In this document: positions 6,821-60,298 of the stretch, piece after piece
How positions within the stretch are numbered: the stretch's first letter is position 1
Layout of the letters: each line of letters starts with the position of its first letter
Assembly (NCBI GenBank): GCA_958496175.1
Contig: OY292277.1
Location: forward strand, 21,718,282-21,782,281
From: Sisyra terminalis
Lineage: Eukaryota; Arthropoda; Insecta; Neuroptera; Sisyridae
Reading direction: 5' to 3'
DNA: 64,000 nucleotides
The notes under the pieces: model-generated
What the model saw: the letters and a program-made list of their open reading frames with translations, nothing else
Databases searched by the model: none
What the model was told of the DNA's origin: nothing
Made by a program: the position numbers and the translations under genes

Positions 6821-6826
6821 CTTATA

Positions 6827-7650
6827 AATTAATTAATAATTATGTATATCCTATGACTCAATTTCTATCCTATGACATAGTTCATAATCTTTCGTTTTAA
6901 TATCCCAAATGTAATACTTTCAATAGGTTTTTTAGAGTGTTAAATGAAGTTTTTCTTATTGCATCATCTAGAGCAAACTTGTTTAAGCTGGAAAACTAAT
7001 TGAAAAATTTTAGAAGCAGAGAAGTGATAAAAAGTAAACCAACAAAATAGTGTCATTTATCATATTATCATATGATAGCTATGAAACAAAAGCTCATGTT
7101 CTTTCTGGAACCATCAAAACTGGCAACGTTGCATTTTCTCATTCGATTTTTACCCCATTCGCGATTTTTTATTAATTCAATTCTAATATAGTATAATTTA
7201 CTCTTTCGTGGCTAAACTTTCGTTATGGGCTGATTTATTTACGAATTAAAATTAAAAAAAATACTAGAAAATGCAACGATGCCAAATTTAATAGTTCCAG
7301 AAAGGACATGCGCTTTTGTTTCATTGCAATCAATTCTCTATCATATGATAAGATGATAAATGACATTTCTTTACATACTTGTAATCACTTCTTTGATTCC
7401 TAAATGTTTCAATTGGTTTTCTAGCTTAAACAAGTTTACTCTAGATGAAATTTTGCAGTAAAAAAAATTCCATTTAACACCCAAAAAAAAACCTATTGAA
7501 AGTATTGCATTTGGGATAATAGAATAAAAGATTATGACTTATGTCATAGGATATAAATTGAGTCGTGAGATAGACATAATAATTAATTAACTTATTAATT
7601 GTGACTCGGAAATAATAAATAAGCTATTTATCAATGTTAAACTAAATGTT
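6827..7650. repeat. Large imperfect palindrome, copy 1
   Basis: The left arm (about 6827-7150) matches the reverse complement of the right arm (about 7255-7595). Matching stretches include TCCTATGACTCAATTT, the ACTTTCAATAGGTTTTTT block, AACTTGTTTAAGCT, TATCATATGATAG, and a 'GTCCTTTCTGGAAC' versus 'GTTCTTTCTGGAACC' pair. By eye the arms are about 80 percent alike, with a loop of about 100 bases. A tail at 7596-7650 containing TGACTCGGAAATAATAAAT is also found beside the second palindrome near 48811-48855, so the two are relatives. No coding capacity is visible. It is probably an old inverted or fold-back mobile element. Confidence 0.7.
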
Positions 7651-30900: not shown

Positions 30901-31550
30901 ACATAGAAGCCAACGATTAATTTTAAGAACTTCATTGAAGATAAAGAACATTTTGTAACTTTTGTAAATTTCAATTAGATATATATTCTTTATACTTACA
31001 ATTCACAAGCCAGTAATAAAATTAAAATGTATATTCAAAGTTTGTCTATGTTGGTATTTTGATAGATATTTTTTTAACAAATTTTACTTTTTTCCATTAT
31101 ATCAAAGATGTGTGGGATGTGTGGGATTAATACAAAGTTGCACATATTAATGCATTAAAAGACTTAAGAAGGGCATTTTTGAGATACGTGCATTGTTTTT
31201 ATTAAAAAAAAGGAAATTATTATATTTATGAATTTATGATATTTACCTCTCAAAAGTCAGTAAAACTATGCAATAACATTGTTGGCATATTATGATATTA
31301 CGCTAATTGACAGGTATTGGCTAGTTTTGAATAAAAAATATCTATTGCCTACCTTTTCTTCTAATTAATACAAACGAACCAAATTGACCAAAAAGTTTAA
31401 AATAGGCCTAGAAAAGTTTAAATCATAAAATAAGCTACAGCATATCTCTAAACACATCTATTTCTTTTTTCTTGTTCACTAGCATTTATTGTACATGACA
31501 CAACTGTACAAGTAACACAAAATTCAAACCAAAAAATTTGATCAATTATT
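27951..31550. other. Very AT-rich desert
   Basis: Three and a half kilobases of A/T runs without a notable open frame. A weak duplication is visible: a block beginning TCTATTGGTAATACAATGG at about 29010 recurs as TCTATTGGTTATGCAATAAT at about 29350. Nothing else is recognised. Confidence 0.45.
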
Positions 31551-33215
31551 ACGTCCATCAACTTAGCACTTTACTTTTAGAATTTGTTCAAATTAACTAC
31601 GAAATATTTTGTTGTTTCTGTATCGTTCATGAGTTTTGTAAAAAAATATCGCTCCCATATTTTACAGAAAATCTTATGTAGTGCTAAATTAACGTGTAGA
31701 GCTTTAAGTGTTTTATTTGCGATTGAAAAAATTTAAAAAAAAATTGGAATAAAAAGTTCTTGCCACTTGCAAATTTTCCAGGTAAACGCTATTTAAAGAA
31801 AAAGCTCGATTAAGACCATACTTCTAACATAGAAATTTTGAGCTTTTATCAGTGCTATTCTTGGTGTTTTTGTCACTCGAGAGCTTCGAAAGAAAATGCT
31901 TAATGACTTGCATATTTTCCCGGAAAACACTATGTCAATAAAATGCTCTTATAAGACATTATTTTACATTAAAACTTCGAAATTTGTATTAGCAAGCGAA
32001 GAATATTATATATGAAAGCGATTGAATTTTTTCTTTCAGAAATCTCGAGAATCAAAAACACCTACTAGTAGCGCAAAAAAAAACAAATTTTCTATATTTG
32101 AGACTTGCTCCAATTTGAGCTTTTTCTTTGTAAAGCGTTTTTCCAGAATATATGCGAGCGAAAATGTTTTCCTTACTTTGGGAGACAAAAAAATACCAAT
32201 TAATGGTGGAAAAAAAAGATAATTTAGTTTTTGAAAACTGCTCCAAAATGTCTTTTTCATTAAACAGCGCTTTTTGGGAAAATATACAAGCTATAAAAAA
32301 AAATTCTTTCAAAATTCAACGACCACAAAAACACCAATTAATGATATAAAGAATCGAAATTTCAATATATGAGAAATAGAGCTTCTTCTTTCAGTGATAT
32401 TTTCGGGGAAAATAAGCAAGTTATAAACTTTTTTATTTCAAAACTCACGAGAAACAAAGAAACACCAAATAATGACGCATCAAAAAGTTCAAAATAACAA
32501 TATTTGGAAAATGTTCCAAATAGAGCTTTTTCTTTAAATGGCATTTACCCTGGAAAATATGCAAACAACTAGTATAATATATCAAAATCTAGTAAAATAT
32601 TGTAACAGAAAAGAACAAACCTGTCTCTCTCTTTGTGCCATGCCGGCACGCAATTGGCTGAGTGACTTCTTTATCTCTCCCACCAACGCGAATGCACATA
32701 TAGATTACTCGAGAAATGTCTAGTGAAGTCTAGGGAAAGCTAGAACATTCTGGAATGTTGGATTGCGAGTATATAGGGCGCTCAGCTTAAGCCAAAAGAA
32801 AAGTTCTGTATCGAAGTTCACCTTGAAATTCGATTTAAAAGTGATTATTGTCATTTAAGTGATTGTTTTGGCAAGTGTAATTGTGTAATAAAAAGTGTAT
32901 ACAAGTGTTATAAAAAAAAGTGATTGTTAAGTGTGAAAGTGATTATTTATTTTCAAAAGAAATTAAAGAACGAATAACGTCATTTCAATACAGTTTTGAG
33001 ACGTGTTAGAATATCAATTAAAAGCACAAAACAAATTGAAACATTAATATTCTTAGAAAAGCTCTAAACGTCAACTTAGCACTATATAGGGTTTTTCTGG
33101 AATAGAAATGATGGACAATTGTTTTTCCAGAACTAATGAACAACAAAAAAATACTACAGTATTTAGTAGTTATATTTTACTAATTCCAAAATTGTAGTAA
33201 TCACTCGATGGACGT
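31551..33215. mobile_element. Fold-back element A1 carrying a captured promoter
   Basis: The ends are inverted copies. The left begins ACGTCCATCAACTTAGCAC (31551) and the right ends in the complement of ACGTCCATCGAGTGATTAC (33215). Similarity continues inward about 150 bases, including TAGTGCTAA and GAGCTTT. Inside are diverged units of about 130-150 bp, each with a CGAGA...AAAGAAA-type block, a GCATATTTTCC block and an AATTGGTGTT block. One faces right (near 31870-31940) and about four face left (32020-32570). Between the last unit and the right end sit about 490 bp unrelated to the repeats (about 32570-33062), which carry a heat-shock-type promoter. No transposase. The same ends occur in A2 (52978) and A3 (55139). 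Confidence 0.75.
32624..33106 (+). promoter_or_regulatory. hsp70-like heat-shock promoter and leader inside element A1
   Basis: In order: TCTCTCTCT (32624-32632, GAGA-factor type), ATTGG (inverted CCAAT, 32653-32657), GAA repeats at 32713, 32725 and 32735, then the heat-shock element GAAcaTTCtgGAAtgTTG (32743-32760), with three perfect alternating 5-bp modules and a fourth one base off. TATATA follows at 32770-32775 and GGGCGCTC just after it. Transcription would be expected to start about 30 bases downstream, near 32800. The following 300 bases contain no ATG until 33107 and have repeated AAGTGATT-like words. This matches the layout of insect hsp70 promoters and their unstructured leaders. 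No hsp coding sequence follows; the first ATG opens only a short frame. The parent gene identity is inferred from layout. Confidence 0.8.
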
Positions 33216-36150
33216 AAATCGTTTAGGAATGCTATATGAAGAATAAATCTACAAAAAATTGATATTAGTCTCATGTAGTTATTAAATGGAGGTGAAAGGT
33301 AGAAAGTTTACTGCCGTATTATAAATTATACACGAAGCTTAGGATATTTACTAAAGAAATACCGGTCAAAACAGTATGGATCATAGATAGACAATATAGA
33401 TGTTGAGGGCTACACTCATTTCAACGACAAGTTTAAATTGCTTACGAATAGAATTTAGAGGGTGCGCTAAGTTGTTTGGAGCGTACAAAATATATATAAA
33501 GTTTAGAACGTTTCGAAACCCCGTATCGGAGTTGACTCGTCGCATGGACAACAATACAATAAATTGAATGTCCGTTGGTTGAGAATATTTATGTGTTTAG
33601 TTGTAAGTGACCCGTGACAAAAGAGAGCTTCGCCAACTTCTATATAGACAAACCGAACGACTGCCGCATTTCTAAATTAAATACATCGTCTTTGGAGTAA
33701 AGAAACATGAAAGATTCACACCATCGAACTAAGAATTTCCTGAAATTGTCCTTCTCTCATTTCAGAGGAAAATCTTCAAGATTTATTAACGCGCCAAGTT
33801 TAAAAGTTAACCGAATAATAGACGGGCATTCAACAATTATTTAAGGGATAGCTCACAAAAAGTGTAAGCCCATCGTTGCCCAGAACATACACACACCAAA
33901 TTATATTGTACGACCACAAAACATAGTCGAGGTGTATATTATCTTGAGCACAATATAACACAGCGTGAGGGGATGAATTAAGAGACGAAGACGCGAAATG
34001 GGCTGTTGATTTCAAGAATGTGTGGTGAGTAGGAAGAACGAGAAGGGTTGTTTGTCGCGTAAGATCCTAAGGGATGATTGTGTGGGTATTCTTCGCCATA
34101 TAAACATACTCTCCCATACATACCCATAAGAAACAACTTGTAAGATGTTGACCAATAAATTTGGTAGCCTTGTCGTTTGGTGTAATTAAACACATAGACC
34201 TCCACCGCCTTCCACCTATCCCGGTTCCAAGTTTTGCCTTTGTATTTCTCGTGCCATACGACATTCGTCCATCACTATCAACTCCCTATTCCACCCCGGC
34301 TTCTTTAACATACGACAAACAATACTCAATTTACACAATACACCCTCGGGAACCCACCAATATCATTATATAATCGCATATGGTAAACTTAGGTCGTTTA
34401 GTATGTTTACGCGTTTACTTATAAAACAAGTACGTGACAAATAATAAATATATGAAAATTTTTAATAATTTTTAATTTTCTTTGATACCCACATAACTCA
34501 AACGCCACATAACAAAATAGCAATAATGTTAAAGCATGTCATTTTATATCATTTCTATATGTCACGAGGCGGGAAAAATAGCTATTACTGTATTGCATTC
34601 ATAGGGGTGAGAATGTGACTGATATTCTATTTGGACAAAAATATCAAGCCCAATAAAGTTTCAATGATACAATATTGTCAGTGACATATTGTCTGTTCGC
34701 CACCTAATGGAAACCGATATTCTCACATATATGCCACCACACTTCCTGAATTCCTTTATTAATCTTTTTTTTTACAAAGAAAAAGGATTACGAATATTTT
34801 CACCAATTCTTTCAATTAAGCGTATAAAAAGAATGGAAAGAAATTAGGTATTGATGAAACGAGACAAAAATATAAAGAATGAACTTCCATCTTAAGAATG
34901 ATGGTAGAATAGCGGATGAGCGAAATGCTATACAATGACACAATGCCATCCATTTTATGATATATTGATACCATTCCCAATAGACAATTGTACCTGACCC
35001 GAGTATCAATATGAGATGACAACACGCGTTACTGCCATTTAAGGGATGTGTAAAAGAGGGTTGGCGCTGACAGGTTTCAGTGTTTCATTTCGCTTGATGT
35101 CTAATAATTTATAAATATAACGACGTATACCGAAAAACGAACAAACTCAGGCCACTTTTTTTTCTTCTGTCGACAAGAAACATAAATGATCGTATTTGTA
35201 TTAATGTAGGAGGGTTAATTTCGAATCGATAAATTAGTAAGTTCGGATCACTAGCATAAAGGGATGATTGCTCAGTCTCGAAATGAGCACGAATTTTAAA
35301 TGAAATGAGGGTGAGAATGTGGTCGTCTTACGATAGATTGTCTTATATTCCTGATATAGTACAAGGTTTCGTTTCATTTATCTACATGTGTTTGTATTGG
35401 TTGTATGTGTGTGTTCCCGAAGGAACAGGAGCAACCGAAATTTAGGCCCTGTTGGCTACAGAGTGTGATAAACCACCATTGGGATTATATTGTTGTGTGT
35501 TTTGCCTACTTATATCTTAAGAAATGTATCCCTCTGGACTCGATGTCCCTCCTATATTAGATTAAATCGATTTCAATTGATTGGCAACAGTAAATCACAA
35601 TTTTCAAACAACTAAAACAAACTCCAATTTCATTTTAATATTAAATTTGTAGTGGAGGTAAATATAATTTCTATGTTAATAATAGACTGTCATAAATTAT
35701 CGTAGTGGTAAGTTCGCTTGTTAATTTGTAGTAATATTTTGTCTTAAAATTAACAATAAAACTGCCGTCATTATGTTTTCATTTCATCCTATACTGTATA
35801 TTCCCCCCATTTAACATATACATATGGACATTACGATAGTGAAACAATAAGTCATATATGTGTATATATGTCTTATTACAATAATAAGGTTTGTTTTGTG
35901 CAAATAAGAGATAAGGAATAGAAATATAGACAGACATTTCCTTACAACCTTACCGTGTATTCCATGTTTCCTTGTCCTTACCGTCTACCATTTGTATCCA
36001 TACCGGTTTCCTCTTGCACTGCGCGCGTCTCTCATTATTATAACCATTTATTGTCTCTGAAATTTACAGTAAAAGTTTATATATACGTATATTATATTAT
36101 TATTATTACTATTCTAATACATACTTATCTATTTCTAAAACAATAACACA
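33216..36150. other. Higher-complexity non-coding island
   Basis: Non-repetitive, moderately complex sequence with short overlapping frames on both strands (for example 33830-34373), which argues against coding. It holds a CTCF-like core at 34697-34710. Confidence 0.35.
34697..34710 (+). promoter_or_regulatory. CTCF-like motif
   Basis: TTCGCCACCTAATGG differs at about two positions from the GCGCCACCTAGTGG form of the insect CTCF consensus. It is the best of the three matches in the window, but still only a motif. Confidence 0.3.
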
Positions 36151-39359: not shown

Positions 39360-39578
39360 TTACGAAAAACTTTTCTCGTTATGGAGAGCTTTATTCACCC
39401 GAGGCATTAACCAAATTTGAGCGCCGATAGCGCTGTCCTCTATGGACAAATCCCATAAGTCATGCAATTCACAAACCATTATCGTGCAGACGGTAAACAC
39501 GCTAGAAAACCCGGCATGATCTTGTAATGTCAAAACAAAATTAAAATTTGTTCCTACTGTAATTTTTAAAAGAATATC
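39360..39578 (+). promoter_or_regulatory. Probable 5-prime UTR and core promoter of the Nup88-like exon
   Basis: GC-richer than the AT-rich flank, with a short GC motif (GCGCCGATAGCGCTGTCCTC, 39421-39440), and directly upstream of the ATG at 39579. No TATA box stands out, as is usual for housekeeping genes. The minus strand is also open across this segment (39360-39614), but that frame shows no domain. Confidence 0.4.
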
Positions 39579-39782
39579 ATGTCGCGCACCGATGTTTTGG
39601 CTCTTAATGAGCATAAAATTATTAAAACTATTCGTGAAACGCTACCAGAAAATGTTAAGAATTCTACAAATATATTAACAGTGCGCGATGATATATTATT
39701 CCTATGGAATTCAAAAGACTGTTGTGTATTTGCATTGAATTTACGGCTGTATCATGACAAAAAACAAGATGTTCCGTTTCAG
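39579..39782 (+). CDS. Nup88: Nup88/mbo nucleoporin, first coding exon (partial gene)
   Basis: An ATG-initiated frame of exactly 68 codons runs into a consensus donor (TTTCAG|GTAAGC at 39782/39783), so the exon ends in phase 0. The peptide starts MSRTDVLALN, then a basic helix IIKTIRETLPENVKN, then the segment ILTVRDDILFLWNSKDCCVF followed by ALNLR. The pattern of a 'DDxLFxW' strand, a 'xDCC' turn and a 'hxLxLR' strand is what I remember at the start of the beta-propeller of Nup88 and fly members only. Nup88 is a nuclear-pore component on the cytoplasmic side that works with Nup214 in CRM1-dependent export. The rest of the propeller and the C-terminal coiled coil (about 600-700 residues) should follow on the plus strand, but no second exon is visible before the window ends. 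Identity rests on 68 residues. Confidence 0.65.
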
Positions 39783-40029
39783 GTAAGCTATTTGATATTT
39801 TTTCATATGTTTTTATTAATTTTCTTAATATTTTTCGACTTACGTAGAAAATATAACCTCACAATTTTGTGCAGTTATTAGCCTAATATAAAAATGAAAT
39901 TTGTGGATTCGTTATTGCTTTAACTTTTGGAATTATTTATTTTTATTGTTTTGAATGTGCTCTAGTTATTATGTTTTTTTGTGTTATTGCGTTGTTTGAA
40001 TGTTTAAATTTAATGTTAGTCTATCAAAG
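39783..40029 (+). other. Start of presumed Nup88 intron 1
   Basis: AT-rich sequence directly after the GTAAGC donor. A pyrimidine tract ending in GTGCAG lies near 39865-39876, but the following bases reach a stop within a few codons in every frame, so I do not accept it as exon 2. Confidence 0.35.
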
Positions 40030-47600: not shown

Positions 47601-48604
47601 TGACACTAGTTAATCAACAGAAAGAAAGCAATATATATATTTGTGTAGAACATATTATTGTTCTACAAAAATGTTCTCTTAACGTTTCAATCATTCAAAT
47701 AATATTAGAACTCAAAACTTTAAAAATTATAAAAAATATTGCATTGACCAAAGTACCATAAAAGCGCTATTAACCAATTGGTTACTAATAAACTTATAAA
47801 CCTTGAACAAAAGATCTACATCAATTTGTTTTAGATTAAACTAGGGGTTGGCAATAAAAATTGAAAATTTCCTAGATTTTAAAGTTCTGGTGACATAGGT
47901 TGGACTAAGGACAAGGGATATTTTCATTTTACTGCTTTACGACCAAAGTGATTTGTGTTTTCTCGTAAATTCTTGATTTGAAAGTGCTTTATTCTATTGA
48001 GCTTTAGCAATTTCTCGAACGTTTATGTGGATATATAATTAATATTAGCCAATTCGTAAAGTTGATTTTCATACTTGAGTGAGGCATGTAATCTTTAGTA
48101 ATGCAATTATTACTTAGGATCGGTATTTTTTCTCATCGGTTGATAGACTATATTCTTAAGATAACTATTTAATGAATAAAAGTTTCCCTGTTTGATAAAT
48201 TGTATACATTTATTCTACACATATCACTATTCTTAGAGGAAAATACGCACGTTTTCTCTATCCTTTGGATAAAATTTTGTCTAGAAGATAAATGGCATTA
48301 CCTAAATGTGAAAATACCGACTCTTAATGTAAATAAATAGTAGTTCTAGAGTTTTTTTTTTTAATTCTTGTGAATTATAGTTGTAGGTTCCAAAATATAT
48401 TTATTCATAAGTACATTAGTTGTAAAAATAATGCATTTGTTTCATCCTTTGAAAAACTTTGAGTGCTTATCAATAAATAAACAATAGGAATAAATTAACA
48501 GGAATATCTTATAGCATATGAACTGATCTATAACAATGATCTATTTTACTTAATCGATAAGTTTAAGCATTTTAAAATGAATTGCTTGAAACTGTGCTCC
48601 AATA
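47601..48604. other. AT-rich stretch
   Basis: AT-rich. A small perfect hairpin, TGTAGAACA / TGTTCTACA, lies at 47644-47667. Nothing else recognised. Confidence 0.35.
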
Positions 48605-48855
48605 TATTAATGAATAATTATGTATGTCCTATGACTCAATTTCTTTATTGAAAACTATGCGTTTCAACAGTCTTTGGCTGTCATCATCAGGTAATTAATT
48701 GGTCTTAATAATCAGATAATTACCTGATGATGACAGCGAAATACTCTTGAAACGCGTCGTATTCAATAAAGAAATTGAGTCATAGGACATACATAATTAT
48801 TAATTTATTTATTAACTGTGACTCGGAAATAATAAATTAACTATTTATCAATGTT
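48605..48855. repeat. Palindrome copy 2 with Penelope-like end motif
   Basis: The left arm, 48605-48698, and right arm, 48715-48812, are inverted copies: GTCCTATGACTCAATTTC, TTTATTGAA, GTTTCAA, GCTGTCATCATCAGGTAATT. In each arm CTGATGA is followed by one T, a GACAG-type half-stem and then TTGAAACGC. The left arm keeps a paired ACAG/CTGT stem. The outer GTCCTATGACTCAATTT block and the tail TGACTCGGAAATAATAAAT (about 48817-48835) are shared with the larger palindrome at 6827-7650. It is probably a head-to-head pair of retroelement ends or a fold-back derivative. Confidence 0.7.
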
Positions 48856-49639
48856 AAAGCTCCAATGTTATTTGAAATTCTGAATTATTTTATTGGGAAT
48901 TAATCACTTTGGTCACGACGTCTGGTGGCCCAAAAAGTACTAGTTTTTATGTGCTCTTTTATAGACAACTATATCAAGTAGTTGATTATAATGAAATTTA
49001 AAATTAAATACCAATTTTGTAATTGAAATAAACGTTATTAAGTCCTTGTATAAAAAAATAGTAGAGTTTAGTACTATGAATGGTTATGATAGTAAATTTC
49101 ATGAAAATGTAGGAATAAGTTTTCTCGCTATTCTCAAGTCTGGTAGCAACTTTGTTGAGGTCAAAAATTGGTTCGGAAAGAAACCAAAAAAAAAATCTAC
49201 TTTCGAAACTGATCCTTATATTTCGTGAAGTTTTTTATATGAAATATTTATAAACAAAATGCTATAAAACTCTTCACATTCCTCCTTGTAGTTTCATTAT
49301 TTTACCACATTTCGTTGGCACATAAATGGCAAGCTTAAAGAATTTTTTTCTGAATTCATAACCTTTTCGGACATTGATTTGGTTCAATCTAGTCGAAAAC
49401 TTATTTAAAGAAAATAAAAATAAATTAAAATACTAACCCAAACTCAATTTAAACTTAAGAGCAATTATTTGGTTGCACACAATATGTAGCCATGTTTTTA
49501 AGCCGCGCCTACTGGTCAGTTCTCAATTTAAAAAAAAATACTGAGTAAGTTTGATTTATAATTAAATTTTCTCGACCGTATTTAGTGACTTTTTTATTTT
49601 TGTTGATAGTGACAAATGATTTTTTTCCCTGTTAATTTA
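48856..49639. other. AT-rich stretch
   Basis: AT-rich. A 60-codon frame at 49046-49228 has no recognised domain. No gene supported. Confidence 0.35.
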
Positions 49640-52977: not shown

Positions 52978-54022
52978 AAGTCCATCAAGTTAGCACTATA
53001 CTTTTGGAATTTCGAAAAAATAACTACGGAATATTTTGGTGGTTTTTGGCGTTCAAAAATTCTGAAAAAAAAACATTTTCGCTCGCATATTTTCCATGAA
53101 AACCCTATGTAATGCTAACTTGACGTTTTGGGCTTTTCTGTAAAATTTCGTATTTTTTTTTGTGTCATTAATTGGTGTTTTTTGTTGATCGAGAATTCCG
53201 AAAGAAAATTTTTTGTAGGTTGCATATTTTTCCGAATATAGATATAGATTCCATTTGAAGGAAAAGCTCAATTTGGGTGATTTTCCAAATATTGAACTTT
53301 GATCTTTTTTTTTGCGCAATTAGTTGGTGTGTTATTGTCGTTCGAGAATTCCGAAAGAAAATTTTTCATAGCTTGTATATTTTTCCGGATATAGACATTT
53401 GAAGAAAAAAGCTCGATTTTAGTAATTTTTTAGTAAGTTTGAATTTTTTTTCGCCATTAGCTGGTATTTTTTTGTCTTTCGAGAGTTTTGAAAGAAAAAA
53501 TGCAAGCTATTGCATTTTTTTCCGGGAAACGCTAGTTAAAGAAAAAGCTCTATCTACTTAGACATACCATATCTAATATAGAACCTTCAATACTTATGAA
53601 AGCAAGTAACGAATATTATATAGGTATGCGCGTAAAGAAATTATTTCTTTCAGAACTTTGAACGACAAAACAACACCAATTAATGGTGAGAAAAAGTTAT
53701 GGAAAGTTCAATATTTGAAAAATAATCCAAATCGAGCTTTTTTTTATAATAGCGTTTCCCGGGAAAATATGCAAGCTATGAAATTTTTTCTTTGGAAGTC
53801 TCGAACGATAAAAAACACCAACTAATGGCGAAAAATTTTTCTAAATTACAATATTTGGTAAATTACTAAAATCGAGCTTTCTTCTTCAAATGGCTATATC
53901 CGGGAAAATATGCAAACTATGAAATTTTTCTTTCAGAATTCTTGAACGACAAAAAAATACCAAAATATTCCGTAGTTATTTTTTCGAAATTCCAAAAATG
54001 TAGTGCTAATTTGATGGACGTC
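52978..54022. mobile_element. Fold-back element A2
   Basis: Inverted ends: left AAGTCCATCAAGTTAGCACT (52978), right complement GACGTCCATCAAATTAGCAC (54022). Both continue GGAATTTCGAAAAAATAACT and then ACGGAATATTTTGG almost perfectly. It is flanked by GTAAATAA (52970-52977) and GTGAATAA (54023-54030), an 8-bp target duplication with one difference. Inside, units of about 140-155 bp, each with CGAGAATTCCGAAAGAAAAT-like, GCATATTTTTCCG-like and AATTGGTG-like blocks, run forward three times (near 53168, 53327 and 53466). They recur inverted twice (about 53650-53960) around a centre near 53600. No transposase. Fold-back elements with inner tandem units are built this way. Confidence 0.8.
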
Positions 54023-55138
54023 GTGAATAAGTATGATTTTTTCCTTTATAGGTATCTAGTACAATGAACCCCTATGAGCCTATGCAGCTTATAAGCCTTT
54101 TTTTTCATAAAAATTTTGAAACTTATTGTCGCTAAAGATAGTTGCTCAAAATGTTTAGTTACCCATTAAATCTCATACCAAAGTTCCTCCAAACTTCCGA
54201 AAAACTTATGAACAATGTCTTGTTTTCTTAGCCATGATTCTTCTTATTTCTTATTGGTACTTACAAAAGGAAGAAGTTTTAAAGTATTCTTTACTTTTGA
54301 ACCCAAAAAAATCGCACTGAATCATATCTGGCAAATTTGGTGTTTACTTTATAATATTGTTGTGCCTAGCCAATTAGGCTAAAATTTACAAAGAAGTATT
54401 GAAATGAGAAGACGCATTATAATGATATAAAAATCTTAAATTTTTTCGCTTAAAAATTTTTAGCAAAAAATCGCATTTGTTTTCGAATTTTTTTAGCAAA
54501 CGGTGTCAAACATAGCGATACGTTTTGATTGATAAAGTAGTTATTAACTATTAAAATAAAGGAATCCGAAATATTTGATGGTCAAACTCCTTTTCGTGTA
54601 TGAGTATCATTTGATTCGTTGTATTGTAATAACTTTTTTTGAGTTCTCTCCATTAATTTTTCATATTATTATAAATGAGGATTGAACAGTAAAATTGATT
54701 TAGGTCTTTTAGGTTTTTAATTTGTTAACTGGCTGCAAAAAAGCAACCTATCGATGGCAATTTCGATTTTTAATTTGATATTCCGAAATACGTTATTGTA
54801 ATGATAATACACAAATAAAAAACTTAAATTTTGGAATTCGACGCTACATTTATACAAAAAAAATGGATTATATTTTTAGAATCCAATTAGTAAAGAGAGC
54901 TAAGAGTGCCATCACCCGTATCTATTTTTTGTCCTGTGTATGGTATAAATTGTATAATAAATTATGATATACCATATAGATTGTCGTTATTTTTGACAAT
55001 ATAAAACATACTGTATTGCAACTAGATATTCTAACAACATTAGTTGACTCTATTTCTCACTTCCTATCTTTTACACCATCTATCTGTTCCATGGAACATT
55101 TAATATTCCCTCTGGATCCCAATATCGAAAATATTGAC

Positions 55139-55466
55139 TGCTATCAAGTTAGCATTATACTATTGAAACTTATAAAGACAAAGCCTTTTGCATATTTTCC
55201 AGAAAACCTCATGCATTGCTTAGCTGACGTTGAAAACTTTTCTACAGGCGATAAAATTTCGTTTTTTTATACGCTATTAATTGTGTTTTTTTTTTTTTGT
55301 CGTTTAAGAGTTCTGGAAAAAAAGTTTGTTACTATTATATTTTCCGAGGAAATAATATTTATTGAAAAACTCGATTTGAAAATTTTTTAAATATTGATAT
55401 TTTTCTCCTTTGCGATAAATTGATAGTAATTAGCTCCTGGAAAGAAGTTCCCTGAATGTTTTTTCA
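55139..55466. mobile_element. Fold-back fragment A3
   Basis: Begins TGCTATCAAGTTAGCATTAT and continues with TTTGCATATTTTCCAGAAAA, TAGCTGACGTTG and TTTTTGTCGTTTAAGAGTTC, all diverged versions of the A1/A2 end and first inner unit. No right end is visible, because the mariner copy at 55469 starts here. The 124-codon frame through it (55016-55390) is repeat sequence, not a gene. Confidence 0.6.
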
Positions 55467-55528: not shown

Positions 55529-56124
55529 TTAATTTTTTTTATCCTCCTCAAAATAACCCCTATTTGATACAATGCACTTGTACCAGCGTTTTTTACAGTC
55601 GTCAAAGCACTTTTGAAATGCACTTTTTGGTATTGCCTTAAGCTCCTCCGGCGATGCAGCCTTAATGTCCTCAATCGTTGCGAATCTTCGTTCTTTCATG
55701 TTACGTTTCAATTTTGGGAAGAGGAAAAAATCACAGGAGGCCAAGTCCGGTGATTACGGTAGTTGAGGCATGATGGAACTAGTATTTTGGCCCAATAAGT
55801 ACCCACTAATAACGACTTGTGTGCAGGAACATTATCATGGTGCATAATCCATGAATTTTCTTTCCACAATTCCGCCCGTTTTTTTTTTCACGCAAACGCC
55901 GCATAGCCTCCAGGTAATACTCCTTGTTTACCATATGACCTTCTAGAAGAAATTCTTGATGCACAACGCCTTGGTAATCAAAGAAAACTGTTATCAAAAC
56001 CTTCACATCCAAACGATCTTGGCGTGCCTTTTTCGGTCTTGGCTCTTCTAGACGCTTCCATCGGCATGATTGGACTTTGGTTTCAATGTCATAACCATAT
56101 GCCCATGACTCATCACCAGTTATA
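55529..56124 (-). pseudogene. mariner transposase, broken C-terminal two-thirds
   Basis: On the minus strand the catalytic part is readable: TVITGDESWAYGYDIETKVQ (first D of the DDD triad), then RPKKARQDRLDVKVLITVFF, DYQGVVHQEF, VNKEYYLEAMRRLRE. After a one-base shift in an A run near 55885 comes WIMHHDNVPAH (second D). After a second shift, PQLP, a stop (TAA where a Tyr codon is expected), then SPDLASCDFFLFPKLKRNMK (third D) and KSAFQKCFDDCKKRWYKCI. It belongs to the D34D mariner group. The N-terminal paired HTH DNA-binding domain is absent, replaced by the antisense of the inverted right arm. Two frameshifts and a stop make it non-functional. Confidence 0.85.
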
Positions 56125-56420
56125 ACCGTATTCACCGGACTTGGCCCCCTGTGACTTTTTCCGCTTCCCAAAATTAAAAAGTAACATGGAAGAACAGAGA
56201 TTCGCAACGATTTAGAAGATTAAGGCTGCATCACTGGAGTAGCTTAAGACAATACCAAAAAGTGCATTTTAAAAGTGCTTTGACGACTGGAAAAAGTGCT
56301 GGCACAACTGCATTGTATCAAAGAGGGGTTATTTTGAAAGGGATAAAAAAAATTTAGACGAATAAATGAATAATTTTTTTTAAAAAGGAAAAAGTCTCCT
56401 TATTTTTTGATGATGCCTCG
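56125..56420 (+). repeat. Inverted right arm of the palindromic mariner
   Basis: Plus-strand copy of the transposase 3-prime end: CCGGACTTGGCCCCCTGTGA, AAGTAACATGGAAGAACAGA, AATACCAAAAAGTGCATTTT, down to AAAAAGTCTCCTTATTTTTT. It pairs with 55469-55760. Stops (for example TAG in GATTTAGAAG and GGAGTAGC) show it is not coding either. Confidence 0.8.
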
Positions 56421-59200: not shown

Positions 59201-59661
59201 TGTCTATGGGGAGAGCTTTAGTTTTTTTGGTGGAAACTGAAAGAAGAAATTTGCCTTCTGCAAATTCAATAAACATTTTGAACAACAGATATGAAACACT
59301 CGAAAAGATTGGTTTTGTATTTTCTTGAGATTAAATTTGAAGAAAAAAAAATCGAAACAATAACTCATTTTTACTTCTGTGGCGTTTTATTATTTATGAA
59401 AAGTTTGTTACAGTCCAAATCAAAAATAGCTTACATATTTTGTTTTATTTTTGGTTTTATTTTTACAAAATTTAACCAAAAAAAAAACAATTTACAATAT
59501 CTTAAGTTTGTATTTTTGTCTGTAACCCAGAATGTAAACAACTAATGGACTGAAATTGCAAAAGTACTTGCCAAAAATTTTAAACGAATCTTCCGTACAT
59601 TTAAGGGGTCCGTCTAATCATTAATGTGGTTAAGAACGACCGATTTTTTCCCTCAATTTTG
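59201..59661. other. AT-rich stretch
   Basis: An 84-codon frame at 59291-59545 is low-complexity (K, F and I rich) and unassigned. Confidence 0.3.
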
Positions 59662-60298
59662 CTCAAAAATTGCTTTATTGATCGCAAGACTGTTTTCAGT
59701 AAAGGAAAAACTAAAAAAAAAAGTAATTAAAACCAACATGCATTCCATATGTTTAAAGAAATACAGTAAGCCCCTCGAGTTTTGCACTTAAATGAATGTT
59801 GAATGTTTGAAAGTAGAGGAATGGAAGAAAATATGTGACAAACACTGCGTTTTAAAGTATTTATTTATCAATATCTTCTTTTTTGGTAAAAATGTCTATA
59901 ATATGCGGTATCTTTCTTAACTGCCCTATATACTGGAGATATACGTTCTCTATTGGGATCACATTTTTTCTCAAAAATTGCTTTATTGGTCGCAAGACTG
60001 TCTTCAGTATAGGGAGGAACTAAAAGAAAAAAAATAAAACCAACATGCTTTCCATATGTTTAAAGAAATACAGTAGGCCCTCGAGTTTTGCACTTAATTT
60101 GAATGTTGAAGTGAATGTAGAATGTTTGAAAATAAAGGAATGTAAAAAAATATGTGACAAACACTGCGTTTTAAAGTATTTATTTATCAATATCTTCTTT
60201 TCTTGGCAAAAATGTCTATAACATGCGGTGTCTTTCTCAACTGCCCTATGTAGATACTTGAGGTATACGTTCTCCATTGGTATCACATTCTTCCATGA
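59662..60298. repeat. Tandem duplication, two units of about 308-328 bp
   Basis: Unit 1 (59662-59969) and unit 2 (59970-60298) both begin CTCAAAAATTGCTTTATTG and share GTTTAAAGAAATACAGTA, CTCGAGTTTTGCACTTAA, TGACAAACACTGCGTTTTAA and TGCGGT-A/G-TCTTTCT-T/C-AACTG in the same order, at roughly 85-90 percent identity by eye. Unit 2 has small insertions. No coding sense. Both lie just upstream of the hAT remnant. Confidence 0.85.

Follow-up and report, generated by a model that had tools for sequence, protein, structure and literature searches.

The right arm of a fold-back element, A1, is interrupted by a segment with the motif layout of a heat-shock promoter, and this segment is probably an insect heat-shock promoter fragment, together with most of its 5' leader, that an old non-autonomous element captured in one of its arms. 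The features are collected in Table 1, where positions refer to the window, namely the whole 64-kb stretch of DNA that was analysed. It is AT-rich (G+C 0.31) and, judging by its gene content and promoter type, probably of insect kind.

Table 1. Features of the A1 locus, of the sister element A2 and of the nearest downstream exon
Feature	Position	Strand	Basis or remark
Fold-back element A1, right arm interrupted	~31549-33217	.	Self-comparison and arm alignments
A1 left terminal arm	31549-31705	+	73% identity to reverse complement of right arm, 157 aligned bases
A1 inner modules, inverted relative to each other, partly tandem	31706-32592	.	31708 pairs with 32620 in self-comparison
Inserted hsp-type promoter segment (one best-fit border pair)	32593-33012	+	Two-flank alignment to A2 and A1 left arms
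GAGA tract (CTCTCTCT on +)	32625-32632	-	Motif search
Inverted CCAAT (ATTGG on +)	32653-32657	-	Motif search
Four-module heat-shock element (HSE) AGAACATTCTGGAATGTTGG	32742-32761	+	11/12 core bases match
TATATA box within GAGTATATAGGGCGCT	32770-32775	+	8 bp past the HSE
Predicted transcription start (AGT, 32802-32804) and ATG-free leader rich in AAGTG	32802-33012	+	Inferred by analogy with soldier-fly hsp70 and from ATG count
A1 right terminal arm	33053-33217	-	Contains first ATG (33108, 29-codon frame)
First AATAAA past the insert, possible 3' end signal	33242-33247	+	Motif; transcript putative
Nup88 exon, ATG to splice donor	39579-39782	+	Pfam PF10168, E 2.7e-14 (frame 39570-39881); canonical donor AG/GTAAGC
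Sister element A2, without the insert	52980-54021	.	Self-comparison and arm alignment

Structure of the element and borders of the insert

Self-comparison and arm alignments revealed that A1 consists of long inverted arms with internal sub-repeats, as expected of a fold-back element. Its outer ends, read from the sequence, are perfect over 11 bp (TTACGTCCATC at 31549-31559 and GATGGACGTAA at 33207-33217), and no clear target-site duplication was seen by eye at either A1 or A2. The terminal arms of A2 are 92% identical over 77 bases and this element looks younger than A1; fragments related to both are found at 55128-55437.

A split of about 390-490 bp separates the parts of the A1 right arm. 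The intervening segment sits between the inner repeats and the right terminal arm, as the earlier note had claimed and the arm alignments confirm, albeit with uncertain borders, and homology to A-type arms picks up again on either side of it. The same note described A2 as lacking the insert, and self-comparison and arm alignment agree: the segment is missing from A2 as well as from A1's own left arm. In the two-flank alignment, the top fits with the left arms as templates placed the left border at 32558-32623 and the right border at 33007-33057. With the A2 left arm, three of five fits delimited 32593-33012 and two delimited 32558-33007; the A1 left arm returned 32623-33057. Between these two templates the left border shifts by about 65 bp and the right border by about 50 bp. 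The shift is larger with the A2 right arm, a shorter template that delimits the insert as 32572-33116, and lower-ranked fits extend to 32549 (left) and to 32987-33058 (right). Since an A-type module motif is faintly traceable near both borders, the insert probably has a true length near 400 bp. Elsewhere in the window, the core common to the top fits (32623-33007) has no match at E 1e-3.

The segment was also evaluated as a small transposon in its own right, a candidate that was rejected: its best end-to-end inverted match is just 10 of 11 bases (P 0.14), the best direct match is likewise 10/11 (P 0.18), neither being significant, and no target duplication was found at the insert.

We infer that the promoter entered the element, and capture in A1 or in a sublineage, as proposed in the earlier note, stands as the best reading given the absence of the segment from A2, with the hsp origin indicated by motifs. 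In the reverse order of events, the promoter would be what is left in place of a heat-shock gene that broke or moved, and A-type elements would have inserted on both sides of it so as to mimic one interrupted element. The A1 left arm is nearer to the A2 left arm (80%) than to the A1 right arm (73%), which may point to different histories of the two halves; moreover, hsp promoters are insertion hot spots, and of the gene sets compared, Drosophila Hsp70 had the most transposon insertions per promoter, 11 of 19 being the small INE-1 (excerpts of PMC2793543). However, the left and right parts of A1 form one element in which nothing is duplicated and at most about 60 bp are missing, and an Hsp70 coding match is absent from the window, so that we regard this flanking insertion as doubtful.

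Several other repeats occur in the window. A2 has inner 141-bp tandem modules. Another inverted-repeat family is represented at 6824-7641 and 48601-48858, with 87-bp stretches common to both at 87% identity, and two direct repeats, 81% and 90% identical, lie about 310-320 bp apart at 59654-60211. A mariner transposase relic (Pfam Transposase_1) on the minus strand at 55806-56219 overlaps an inverted repeat (55531-55760 / 56125-56354) whose arms are 89% complementary.

Promoter motifs and their chance expectation

The GAGA tract, inverted CCAAT, five GAA modules, near-perfect four-module HSE, TATATA box and long leader listed in the earlier note were all recovered, at tighter coordinates. The five GAA triplets are located at 32713, 32725, 32735, 32743 and 32753, with a TTC at 32748, and the resulting alternating nGAAn/nTTCn array (four modules, 11/12 core bases) directly upstream of the TATA box is the arrangement of an hsp70-type promoter. 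The AGT at the predicted start lies about 26 bp beyond TATATA and is followed by no ATG until 33108. Depending on the border, the leader spans about 205-255 nt, and the segment ends close to the expected place of a start codon.

Such motifs are common in AT-rich DNA and could have been assembled by chance in decayed transposon sequence. Taken one at a time, they fit this explanation. HSEs with at least 11 of 12 core bases number one in the window vs a mean of 0.9 in 60 Markov-1 simulations, which alone is unexceptional, and perfect three-module arrays number two vs a mean of 1.25 in Markov-1 simulations; counted on both strands, the HSE mean of 100 Markov-2 simulations is 2.3 per 64 kb vs two in the window, both being the same site. 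The leader has no ATG where about 6 are expected from its own dinucleotides (P ~0.002), which alone is just moderately unusual, and ATG gaps of at least 340 bp on the plus strand are not rare (seven in the window, the leader gap among them). The non-significant alignment to Hsp70 reported below also favours chance. The joint layout, defined as an HSE followed by a TATA box, preceded by a 7-base GAGA tract and followed by a 200-nt ATG-free leader, argues against it: the window holds one instance at each step, whereas the Markov-2 means per 64 kb are 0.25 for HSE and TATA, 0.01 when GAGA is added and 0 with the leader (0/100 simulations), although the true surprise is smaller than these means imply because the motif criteria were fixed post hoc, after the sequence had been seen. 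Furthermore, the segment carrying the motifs is the part unmatched to the element family. The motif layout is real, and its origin by chance is unlikely.

Parentage of the segment

The TATATA-type box, the AGT near the expected start and the leader length of the captured segment are all reminiscent of the hsp70 genes of Stratiomyidae (excerpts of PMC3071340 and PMC4336284). In S. singularior hsp70, the start AGT follows a TATATATA box by 24 bp and precedes the start codon by 230 bp, and the hsp70 leaders of O. pardalina measure 252-260 bp (both in excerpts of PMC3071340); TATATA occurs in soldier-fly hsp70 as well (excerpts of PMC4336284). These genes differ from the A1 segment, with which they were compared by description and not by alignment, in that a coding gene is present there and none here. 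According to the excerpts of both papers, S. singularior is without canonical GAGA, whereas the A1 insert has CTCTCTCT.

Alignment was performed with D. melanogaster Hsp70, the sole comparison species, the letters of which were taken from PMC5972414 and PMC10184743 (both in part). The best core alignment, GAGTATA..TAG.GGCGCT, has P 0.18 (1000 shuffles, composition-weighted scoring), and the likeness between GAGTATATAGGGCGCT in the insert and GAGTATAAATAGAGGCGCT in the D. melanogaster gene, which requires two gaps, is a resemblance only at P 0.18 vs shuffled queries. The Hsp70 leader and the core plus leader gave P 0.20 and 0.31, respectively, against the insert (1000 shuffles). When the entire window was scanned with three Hsp70 queries, the insert site fell outside the five best matches for each. 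Homology to D. melanogaster Hsp70 was unsupported under plain scoring, where the best window score was 27 and shuffled queries reached 29 with AT-rich matches, and was likewise unsupported under composition-weighted scoring. The earlier note had called the promoter hsp70-style: the hsp-type layout stands, but no significant alignment supports the hsp70 origin. Since the layout is hsp70-like but the alignment is not significant, the motif layout suggests an hsp-type segment that we do not assign to hsp70 or to any other named parent gene.

A search of contigs from viruses and prokaryotes with exact promoter strings of 27 and 24 bases gave no match, which is what an insect-like locus should show, and none of the papers returned by a text search contained strings of the insert.

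Coding content of the window

An intact hsp gene directly downstream of the segment, which the earlier note had named as evidence against its proposal, was not found: tblastn with an Hsp70 query gave no match at E 5 in the 64-kb window, and no frame exceeds 137 aa, the length of the longest stop-to-stop frame, which is the mariner relic. Among the 27 frames of at least 90 aa, 20 were scanned with Pfam and two scored above the cut-off (the Nup88 exon and the mariner transposase), neither being hsp; with this coverage, a gene from a different hsp family, split by introns, could still lie within the window. Matches to DUF997, DUF2678 and EVI2A were weak, below cut-off and discarded as chance. The nearest coding exon recognised downstream on the plus strand is that of the Nup88 homologue, 6.8 kb past the predicted start; no further exons of this gene were located. 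Rfam returned no match at gathering score.

A promoter of heat-shock type that lacks a long coding frame downstream would also suit an hsr-omega-like noncoding heat-shock gene with a transposon in its vicinity. The hallmark of hsr-omega is a long tandem array with the nonamer ATAGGTAGG. This nonamer is missing on both strands, and among the tandem arrays listed there is none at 33.2-39.3 kb, while those from there to 53.6 kb all have periods of at most 22 bp, which makes such a gene highly unlikely here.

Age and decay

The arms of A1 (73% identical over 157 bases) are separated by K 0.336 in all. If they were alike at the last move, this corresponds to about K 0.17 per arm (half of the total), or, when the A2 left arm is used to split the distance three ways, to 0.13 and 0.20. 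However, as the A1 left arm is closer to that of A2 than to its own right arm, the arms of A1 may never have been alike. We simulated decay with 4000 runs per distance, K being given per lineage: all four promoter features were retained in 29% of runs at K 0.03, 14% at 0.05, 2.3% at 0.10, 0.5% at 0.15 and 0.2% at 0.18. These values concern features chosen because they are present, and they presume that the arms matched when A1 last moved, a premise that the arm distances make doubtful. On that premise the promoter features should mostly have decayed, and their persistence despite the high K of the arms speaks against a mobile, spreading element. At high K, it hints that the promoter either entered a dead A1 later or is under selection.

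Proposed mechanism

If the captured promoter is still active, HSF activated by heat would bind the HSE at 32742-32761, at a site that GAGA factor would hold open through CTCTCTCT. Pol II would then start near 32802 and transcribe the leader, followed by the right terminal arm. The product would be a noncoding RNA of about 460 nt with a first reading frame of 29 codons, located within the arm. The AATAAA at 33242 could mark its 3' end; a further AATAAA inside the leader, at 32887, could end the RNA sooner. Read-through towards Nup88 would be possible but is unsupported. A more far-reaching scenario, in which a fold-back sublineage carries a whole working hsp promoter, has moved it genome-wide and recruits genes such as Nup88 to the heat-shock response, appears very improbable to us.

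An active segment would be a further case, in a different class of element, of an hsp promoter split from its gene and driving transposon sequence. One could then ask whether fold-back elements carry complete promoters, and whether heat yields arm-containing RNA that feeds small-RNA silencing. If inactive, the segment would be a fossil of promoter shuffling that could be dated in relatives.

Comparison with known systems

The Galileo and FB fold-back elements of Drosophila consist almost entirely of very long modular arms in mutually inverted orientation. A1 and A2 have long modular inverted arms as well, a likeness drawn from the general features of the class and not from sequence. Both Drosophila elements are named in excerpts of PMC3355041 and PMC1794594. 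Among the matches listed in our literature search there was no prior description of an hsp promoter inside a fold-back element, which is weak evidence of novelty as few subscription journals were covered.

The Helitrons of Caenorhabditis carry many HSEs, at which occupancy by HSF-1 (after heat) and by Pol II was shown (excerpts of PMC6927752). They share with A1 the presence of HSF binding sites, predicted in our case, inside a DNA transposon that could thereby render its neighbours heat-inducible. They differ in the number of HSEs, whereas the A1 insert is single copy in the window and possesses a TATA box and a putative leader in addition.

Closest to A1 is the alpha-gamma element of D. melanogaster (87C; CR32865), in which an Hsp70 promoter fragment drives heat-induced Dm88/invader1 RNA (excerpts of PMC1794594 and PMC1308810). 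As described there, an hsp promoter fragment without coding gene is joined to transposon sequence, with a noncoding chimeric RNA as the product; A1 is similar, the hsp fragment and the RNA being putative in its case. At A1 we found junctions of the alpha-gamma type and no Hsp70 coding sequence, the hsp parentage of the fragment being read from its motifs. In contrast, alpha-gamma involves LTR elements nested between Hsp70 genes and documented heat induction, while A1 is a fold-back DNA element with a predicted promoter. We thus consider the alpha-gamma element a close precedent for the A1 insert, which would represent a variation on the known hsp-promoter/transposon chimeras, here in a fold-back element.
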